Shown here: piece by piece, positions 3,118-33,100 of the stretch
Layout: each line of letters opens with the position of its first letter
How positions within the stretch are numbered: position 1 is the stretch's first letter
Assembly: GCA_017161705.1 (NCBI GenBank)
Contig: JADFCW010000025.1
Location: 1 to 36,693, forward strand
Length of the DNA: 36,693 nucleotides
Direction: 5' to 3'
Source: Candidatus Sumerlaeota bacterium
Lineage (GTDB): Bacteria > Sumerlaeota > Sumerlaeia > JADFCW01
Notes under the pieces: generated by a model
What the model was told of the DNA's origin: nothing
Seen by the model: only the letters and a program-made list of their open reading frames with translations
Databases searched by the model: none
Program-made: the position numbers and the translations under genes

Positions 3118-3330
3118 TATGAAAGATTGGAGGGCGGCCGCGGAAGCGAGGGCAATCGTTTGTCTTGCGATGAACCCGTACGGCAAAGCGGCAGCCATGC
3201 TGCCGCTTTTGCCCGCCAAGTTTCGATGCATTGAACGCGGCCTGCGGCCATAAGCAAACATGGAATGCTCCATAAAGATGCATGCGGTTTGGCTAGATCT
3301 TTAAACGAAAAAATCCGAAAGATTGAATTG
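3118..3330 (+). repeat. Long intergenic repeat, copy 1 (contains a single palindrome at 3188-3206)
   Basis: Shares ATGAAAGATT..., GGGCAATCGYTTGTCTTGCGATGAAC, AAAGCGGCAGC..GCTGCCGCTTT, GAACGCGGCCT and ACAAACATGGAATGCTYCAYAAAG blocks, in the same order, with the reverse complement of ~32770-33100. Confidence 0.8.
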
Positions 3331-6583: not shown

Positions 6584-7837
6584 ATGCCCCGCGACTTTGC
6601 TTCCGCCGTTTGGTACAAATGGGCTGTAGTGGGGATGCTTTGGTTTGTATGCTTTTTTAATTATGTCGACCGACAGGGTATCTTCTCCGTTTTTCCGCTT
6701 CTGGAGCAACCCGACAAAGGACTGGGTTTATCCAAGCAACAGCTGGCCCTGATTGGCTCGGCCTTCATGTGGGTTTATGCCGGGTCGGGTTGGCTGGCCG
6801 GCATCATCGGCGACCTCGTCCGACGCAAAACGGTCATCCTTGGCGGCTTCCTGTTCTGGTCTGTGGTCACCCTGGCTTTTGGGTTTGCCACGAAATACTG
6901 GCATCTTGTGGCTTTGCGCGCCATCGAGGGACTCGGCGAGGCTTTCTACTTTCCCGCCGCTATGGCCATGATCAGCGCTTATCACGGCAAGGCCACGCGC
7001 TCGAAAGCCATGGGCATCCACCAGTCCAGTGTCTATGTGGGCACGATTGCCGGCGGCGCGATCGCGGGTGTCATGGGCGAGTATCTGGGGTGGCGGTCGT
7101 CGTTCTTTCTGTTTGGCGGGCTTGGTGTTTTGGTTGCCTTGCTGCTTTGGGTGTTTCTCAAAGAGCCCAGTGCAGAACAACTGGCGGCATCGCGGCAGGA
7201 GGCGGCCGGGGCGCAGCCGGCCCGCCGCTTCAACTTTCCCATGGTCATCGTTCTGGCGCTCGTGTTTATTGGTGCCAACTCGGTCGCCTCGATTTTTCTG
7301 GCCTGGACGCCGACATTTCTTCACGACAAGTTCGCCATCAGCGTCTCGCGTGCGTCGGTCTATGCCTCGGCCTATTTGCAGACATTCTCGATTCTCGGCG
7401 TTCTGTTCGGCGGCTGGCTGGCCGACCGTTTGGTGCGGCGCTTCCTTGGCGGGCGCCCGATGACCCAGGCTCTTGGTCTGTGCTGCGGCATGCCGTTCAT
7501 CTTTATGGTCGGCTGGTCTGACCAAATAAAAGCGACGTTGATGGCCCTTGCCCTGTTCGGTTTTTGCAAGGGGATTTACGACTCGAACATTTGGGCCTCG
7601 CTGCACGACGTAGTGCCCGCCGAACGCCGCGCAACCGCCGTCGGCGTCATCAACTCGATCAGCTGGTTCGGCGGCGGGCTGGCAGCCTACCTCATCGGCT
7701 ATTGCACTCAATGGTTCAGCATGAGCGTTATGATTAGCGCCGTCTCGGTCGTTTATTTGATCTTCGCTCTGGTCATGATCGGGGGCGTTCGCCGGTTCAT
7801 GAGCGGCCGGCAGCCGCTTCAGTTGCCGCACGGTTGA
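6584..7837 (+). CDS. MFS transporter
   Basis: 12-TM pattern; NYVDRQGIFSVFPLL, GDLVRRKTVILGG, FLKEPS. Confidence 0.9.
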   Translation: MPRDFASAVWYKWAVVGMLWFVCFFNYVDRQGIFSVFPLLEQPDKGLGLSKQQLALIGSAFMWVYAGSGWLAGIIGDLVRRKTVILGGFLFWSVVTLAFGFATKYWHLVALRAIEGLGEAFYFPAAMAMISAYHGKATRSKAMGIHQSSVYVGTIAGGAIAGVMGEYLGWRSSFFLFGGLGVLVALLLWVFLKEPSAEQLAASRQEAAGAQPARRFNFPMVIVLALVFIGANSVASIFLAWTPTFLHDKFAISVSRASVYASAYLQTFSILGVLFGGWLADRLVRRFLGGRPMTQALGLCCGMPFIFMVGWSDQIKATLMALALFGFCKGIYDSNIWASLHDVVPAERRATAVGVINSISWFGGGLAAYLIGYCTQWFSMSVMISAVSVVYLIFALVMIGGVRRFMSGRQPLQLPHG

Positions 7838-12565: not shown

Positions 12566-12676
12566 TCGGCCATGACACACGATTGGCCGTGCTACATTAT
12601 TGAGCGTGATTTTCCAGGACGTGCCGAATGATGATTTTTTGCCGGTCGCTCGAAAGCGGGAAGAGAGTGTTTCTTT

Positions 12677-12791
12677 TTTGGAGTGCGGTAGCCATGCTAC
12701 CGCTTTGATCTGGTCCGTGGTGCTGGAGGCAACGTTTGGCTGAGCCGTCTGTGACTAAAGCAAAGCGGCAGCATGGCTGCCGCAGTCCAAA
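12677..12791 (+). repeat. 115-bp palindrome-flanked element (core orientation B)
   Basis: TTTGGAGTGCGGTAGCCATGCTACCGC (arm 12685-12703)...core...GCGGCAGCATGGCTGCCGC (arm 12765-12783)AGTCCAAA. Confidence 0.9.
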
Positions 12792-12809
12792 ATAAAGGAG
12801 ATTTTACGG

Positions 12810-13067
12810 ATGAGCAGGTCGTTTGCCGTAATCGCGTGTCTATTCTGGATCATCGGACAGCGACTGGGCGCTAAAAAGTCCCGCTCCCGCTGGCCAATTT
12901 GCCGGCGCGGACAGTCGGGGCGGCTGTCTGTGGGAATTACCGGTTTCCAGCAGGCACGGCGGACAGACCTTTTGGAGAAAGACCTTGGCGAACTGGAAAT
13001 CGCCGACGGCCGGGTTGTGCTTGATTTGCCCGGCCGCGGCTTTGCCGGATTGCACTTGCTGCCGTGA
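12810..13067 (+). pseudogene. Possible C-terminal remnant of a glycoside hydrolase-like protein
   Basis: ARRTDLLEKDLGELEIADGRVVLDLPGRGFAGLHLLP resembles the DLL...DGRVxLDLPPRGxAVLxL tail of alpha-amylase/galactosidase-type enzymes; no catalytic part present. Confidence 0.3.
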
Positions 13068-13102
13068 GCCGCAGCCTGCATTGCCGCAGAAGGAGGAGAT
13101 CA

Positions 13103-28077: not shown

Positions 28078-28105
28078 TCGGTTTCCAGGAAGAGAGCGTT
28101 TCTTT

Positions 28106-28220
28106 TTTGGACTGCGGTAGCCATGCTACCGCTTTGCTTTAGTCACAGATCTTCCCACCAAACGTGGCCATGAGCGCCACGGACCAGAACAAAGCGGCAG
28201 CATGGCTGCCGCAGTCCAAA
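28106..28220 (+). repeat. 115-bp palindrome-flanked element (core orientation A)
   Basis: Arms 28114-28132 and 28194-28212; outer TTTGGACT/AGTCCAAA. Confidence 0.92.
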
Positions 28221-28316: not shown

Positions 28317-28431
28317 TTTGGACTGCGGTAGCCATGCTGCCGCTTTGCTTTAGTCGCAGATCTTCCCACCAAACGTGGCCGTGAGCGCCGCGGACCAGAA
28401 CAAAGCGGCAGCATGGCTGCCGCAGTCCAAA
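28317..28431 (+). repeat. 115-bp palindrome-flanked element (core orientation A)
   Basis: Arms 28325-28343 and 28405-28423; core differs from the 28106 copy at three positions by eye. Confidence 0.92.
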
Positions 28432-32769: not shown

Positions 32770-33100
32770 AGTCCTGGATGCGGCATAGATCTTTTCGTCG
32801 AAAGAGTTAGCCGAAATGCATCCACCTTTGTGAAGCATTCCATGTTTGTCACTATAAGGCCGCGTTCGGCGGTAAGGCCGCGTTCGGCGGTCGAAGGTTG
32901 TTGGGGAAAGCGGCAGCATGGCTGCCGCAGTCCAAAGCGAAAGCATTTTATTTTGCCCTATTGGAAGTCTGCGGAGCAAAACTTTTGGAGTGCGGCAGCC
33001 ATGCTGCCGCTTTTCCATATTAGTTCATCGCAAGACAAGCGATTGCCCCGGCTTTTTCGGCTGCCTGAGAATCTTTCATTTCAAGTCAAGATCCAGCCAT
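32770..33100 (-). repeat. Long intergenic repeat, copy 2 (inverted; two palindromes)
   Basis: Palindromes 32910-32928 and 32992-33010; flanks match 3118-3330 in reverse complement. Confidence 0.78.
32855..32890. repeat. 18-bp direct tandem duplication
   Basis: TAAGGCCGCGTTCGGCGG x2, perfect. Confidence 0.95.

Follow-up and report, generated by a model that had tools for sequence, protein, structure and literature searches.

We found that the feature at 12.7 kb of the window (the whole 36,693-nucleotide stretch of DNA analysed, contig 103 of the 4.67-Mb, 395-contig genome of a Candidatus Sumerlaeota bacterium) carries a core that is reversed relative to its flank and arm variant, and that the sister species SKW40 has an independent flip with both flanks conserved. 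The reading we prefer, with a probability of about 0.72, is that the feature is a REPIN-like dispersed hairpin element whose polar core was inverted in place between its inverted arms, most likely by exchange between the arms. Inversion in place is well supported by comparison of the copies. The repeats record a process of local DNA inversion, not an obvious genetic switch.

Anatomy and distribution of the element

The arm reads TTTGGA[C/G]T-GCGG[C/T]AGC-CAT-GCT[G/A]CCGC-TTTG, its outer bases being TTTGGACT or TTTGGAGT. Since the arm forms an 8-bp stem with a 3-base loop, its T/A variant remains paired. Each element is composed of two inverted 19-bp hairpin arms within near-symmetric ends of 27-31 bp, with a polar core of about 61 bp (61-63 bp) between them. 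Either strand is predicted to fold into a long hairpin (-62 to -85 kcal/mol, z -7 to -10). Copies with the core type of this window, called K here, have a polar flank, F, on one side, which extends up to about 105 bp; the left flank noted at the 12.7 kb copy forms the 3' end of such a repeat, which starts near 12571, measures about 105 bp and is dispersed among other genomic copies. The 12.7, 28.1 and 28.3 kb copies, the three for which the position was checked, sit between genes. The coordinates are given in Table 1.

Table 1. Positions of the element, its flank and the copies compared (window coordinates unless SKW40 is named)
Feature	Position	Strand	Remarks
Flank repeat F, polar, left of the element	12571..12676	+	About 105 bp here; common to C333, C307, C211, C17, C358, C340, partly C323, C251
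Left (F-side) arm, T/A variant, TTTGGAGT-GCGGTAGCCATGCTACCGC-TTTG	12677..12707	+	19-bp hairpin 12685-12703
Core, inverted	12704..12764	-	K-minus relative to flank F; usual family polarity when read on the - strand
Right arm, CAAA-GCGGCAGCATGGCTGCCGC-AGTCCAAA	12761..12791	-	19-bp hairpin 12765-12783
3' end of flank F, 28.1 kb copy	28088..28105	+	F-like remnant at the orthologous SKW40 locus
Reference copy, usual core orientation	28106..28220	+	Arm 28114-28132, core 28133-28193, arm 28194-28212
Second copy in usual orientation	28317..28431	+	Arm 28325-28343, core 28344-28404, arm 28405-28423
L264, flipped copy of family S	SKW40 (G001 C24), about 7699-7821		

A pattern search gave 311 arm matches in the window's genome and 0 for the reversed control pattern. 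Of 99 genomes searched, 12 had arm matches; 10 of these 12 belong to the same class but not to the genus. In the named genome collection, which may omit entries for the genome of the window, the extended arm pattern matched only Candidatus Sumerlaeia SKW40. The arm copies compared below are a non-exhaustive sample, drawn from searches and fetched stretches. Rfam gave 0 matches to the window. K-type cores or core edges also adjoin another hairpin-like motif, about GTTGCGGCAGGAGGCCGCGTCAG, at four loci (L201, L203, L204 and L206, on C17, C323, C191 and C307, respectively); this motif is perhaps an alternative arm.

Orientation of the core in the window and its genome

The first-pass annotation had claimed a gap-free match of 62 bp with 13 mismatches between the 12.7 kb core and the reverse complement of the 28.1 kb core. 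This is exact: the 62-mer at 12704-12765 agrees with the reverse complement of 28132-28193 at 49/62 positions, and no other ungapped reverse-complement match elsewhere in the window is better. With gaps allowed, the 12.7 kb core scored 65 against the reverse-complemented 28.1 kb core, whereas 2000 dinucleotide shuffles had a mean of 13.7 and a maximum of 35. Chance similarity of the two cores was rejected, as no shuffle reached 65. The same cores compared forward scored 12, a value attained by 1006/2000 shuffles and thus at chance level. After 12 bases were trimmed off each core end the reverse-complement score was 23 (6/2000 shuffles as high), so much of the signal within the window sits in the outer parts of the core. 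Against the core of the 28.3 kb copy, which shares 96% identity with the 28.1 kb copy, the score was 55 in reverse and 12 forward. The flank GGAAGAGAG..TTTCTTTTTTGGA and the arm GGTAGCCATGCTACC had been said to stay on the left in both copies, and they indeed lie on the left side and the same strand at 12659-12701 and 28088-28130.

It had also been proposed that core orientation be tabulated against flank and arm variants across the genome. With F set on the left, seven of the ten K copies that have flank F are K-plus (28.1 kb, 28.3 kb, C17, C323, C307, C211 and C251) and three are K-minus (12.7 kb, C214 and C333); C214 was oriented by a recognisable F remnant, about its last 22 bp, together with the T/A arm. 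All exact T/A-variant arms in the genome (8/8) are on the F side, with the core in either direction. The flank and the arm variant therefore did not move with the core.

How many times the core turned may be judged from trees of the copies. Three orientation changes are needed on the core tree, two on the flank tree and three on the combined tree, and a single change was found in 0%, 1% and 0% of the respective bootstrap trees. With 60-140 alignment columns, support for the trees is weak. It is therefore probable, but not proved, that the orientation changed more than once in this genome, the trees giving 2-3 changes. The three K-minus copies could nevertheless share one flip: a single ancient event may have founded a K-minus subfamily that later dispersed as complete units of flank plus element. 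In its favour, the alignment of the 12.7 kb copy with C333 (91%) and C214 (87%) is collinear over the flank end, arms and core, and the starred tree branches force no more than one change. However, one change in 0-1% of bootstrap trees argues against this account, C333 is without the T/A arm, and the flipped copy in SKW40 would still require its own flip. We consider a single founding flip possible but doubtful; if true, it would alter the number of events and not their nature.

Gene order around the 12.7 kb locus is conserved in SKW40, where the arms and core are absent and a 39-bp piece of F is present (no shuffle was as good). At the SKW40 counterpart of the 28.1 kb locus, a shorter F-like remnant was found. 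These alignments indicate that at both sites arm-core-arm was gained or lost apart from at least part of F. Most K loci were traced in SKW40 via joined coding flanks, and none of them has a K-core element there; no orthologue with the core in the opposite orientation was thus found, a point against inversion in place. A K-core search of SKW40 gave weak relatives at most. Directly downstream of the flipped element, window positions 12806-13070 hold a gene remnant from which about 2.3 kb is missing; its intact counterpart in SKW40 is 849 aa long, with a weak glycoside hydrolase 38 C-terminal match.

A flip in SKW40 and rival explanations

In SKW40, two further core families, Q and S, sit between the same arms. 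Polarity is consistent with the flanks in 13/13 Q copies that have recognisable flanks and in 11/12 S copies. The exception, L264, has both S flanks in normal order, and its core aligns with other S copies solely as the reverse complement (78-89%). S flank polarity is clear because on both sides the flanks extend outward into a direct repeat of roughly 115 bp. L264 has a perfect inverted repeat of 27 bp. Judged from its alignment, L264 represents an independent flip and a cleaner case than the 12.7 kb copy, since both flanks are conserved: reversal in place is seen from both sides at L264, and from the F side and gene synteny at 12.7 kb.

A core might instead have been replaced from another copy by arm-anchored conversion or recombination. 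Since the ends of the element are mirror images, a donor core can enter either way round, and the arm matches across the genome offer many potential partners. The cores nearest to the 12.7 kb core include that of C17, which has the opposite polarity. In SKW40, an S-type core adjoins a Q-type flank in opposite polarity (L181, 153-276), which is probably a core swap between repeat families. However, the core of L264 is a typical S core and so matches its flanks, as a flip in place predicts, and exchange within one element requires no second locus. We therefore regard ectopic replacement as unlikely, although better placed than the two explanations that follow.

Misassembly at the repeated arms would be a technical origin of the reversed cores. 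The two genomes are in fragments, with many K copies at contig ends, but all three K-minus copies and L264 are inside contigs, and flips occur in two separate assemblies. Arms of 27-31 bp are shorter than the words usually used in assembly, which also counts against such an artefact; it is very improbable.

The first-pass annotation had described the core as flipped in place and as a possible invertible switch. The first part is supported by the genome copies and by L264 with both flanks conserved; the second is not supported. A regulatory switch turned by a site-specific recombinase is the least probable of these explanations and hardly credible: the element is a polar segment between inverted, terminator-like arms upstream of a gene remnant, but that downstream reading frame is only a remnant, most copies keep one polarity, the fold is preserved after the flip, a consensus scan found no promoter-like site in the core, the orthologous SKW40 locus is without arms and core, and the trees suggest few events over evolutionary time.

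Mechanism, related systems and meaning

In the inversion in place that we prefer, the core alone would turn, with both arms, the polar flank and the adjacent genes left where they were. Exchange between both arms might occur via replication template switching at the hairpin, or via recombination across the inverted repeat of 27-31 bp; the two routes would yield one and the same product. In yeast, spacers between inverted repeats become inverted through template switching, a process that favours long arms (PMC8604942), and in chloroplasts hairpin loops of 25-27 bp flip recurrently between arms of at least 18 bp (PMC2903610). Two flipped copies retain an intact T/A arm on the F side, which is not expected from a mid-arm crossover. 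The exchange point may therefore lie in the innermost arm bases, or the arm may have been corrected later. Matched loop variants in both arms, a sign of homogenisation, gave a Fisher p of 0.07; arm homogenisation as a side product of template switching is thus only hinted at. The flip is probably near-neutral. The fold depends on the arms, so that the hairpin persists after a flip with little change, and neutrality is the default. We infer both this neutrality and the molecular route.

The element resembles REPINs (Bertels and Rainey 2011, PMC3116915), which likewise have two inverted short palindromic arms around a spacer, occur in high copy number, form a long hairpin and in some copies are in tandem together with their flanks. 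REPINs are extragenic, as are the three copies whose position was checked. Here, too, inverted REP-like palindromes surround a short spacer to form one hairpin, and the palindrome copy number is high. Unlike in REPINs, no matching RAYT was found and a known REP tag is absent from the arms; spacer polarity varies among copies, for which we found no report in REPINs. No cognate RAYT gene flanked by the same palindrome was found in the genome, which is 94% complete, so that a missed gene is possible. Because no cognate RAYT was found, the element is REPIN-like rather than a REPIN. The one IS200-like (RAYT-like, Y1_Tnp) gene of the genome, L119 (G000 C111:7500-9460), lies among tandem hairpins TTCGCCTTTCAGGCGAA of a different family. 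It was rejected as the mover of this arm family, as there are no arm matches there.

Tagged REP dimers, head-to-head and tail-to-tail (PMC3733652), are a second relative. Both dimer types are found here, with 8-bp stems and partly conserved spacers. However, the outer bases here are GGACT or GGAGT, and neither GTAG nor CGTC was found at the stem foot. Spacer inversion in yeast (PMC8604942) shares the reverse-complementing of the spacer in place between perfect or near-perfect arms, but the spacers there are a few bases long whereas those of the dispersed bacterial repeats are 60-85 bases. Chloroplast hairpin-loop inversions, for example trnH-psbA (PMC2903610), share recurrent flips between arms for which no recombinase is invoked, but they concern one orthologous locus in many plants and not many dispersed copies in one genome. 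The mutation type, spacer inversion between inverted repeats, is thus known, and it is the setting that is unusually countable. In the open literature searched on REPINs, REP dimers and spacer inversion, we found no report of recurrent core inversion in REPINs or REPIN-like families.

With its many dispersed copies, in which flank and core are both polar, a single genome can serve as a natural assay for micro-inversion at short inverted repeats. Flips were found in 3/10 K copies, 1/12 S copies and 0/13 Q copies, and in none of about a dozen copies compared of family D, which consists of tail-to-tail arm dimers. Because these counts are unequal among families, dependence on arm identity, arm length and spacing is testable. 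REPIN-like alignments that disregard core polarity will misjudge relatedness. As a broader and tentative suggestion, REP-type doublet arms might act as cassette borders between which polar cores undergo repeated inversion and exchange, and families would then diversify by core shuffling between mirror-image ends; in the literature searched, we found no description of such shuffling as a mode of evolution of bacterial dispersed repeats.

The arm sequence also occurs in other arrangements. Single arms form regular tandem arrays at G000 C9:5134-5305 (spacing 51 bp) and C108:1106-1210 (43 bp). Window positions 32910-33010 hold a tail-to-tail dimer of family D that has a conserved polar spacer and flanks of its own, and a solo arm lies at 3188-3206, where the conserved outer sequence resembles that of family D.
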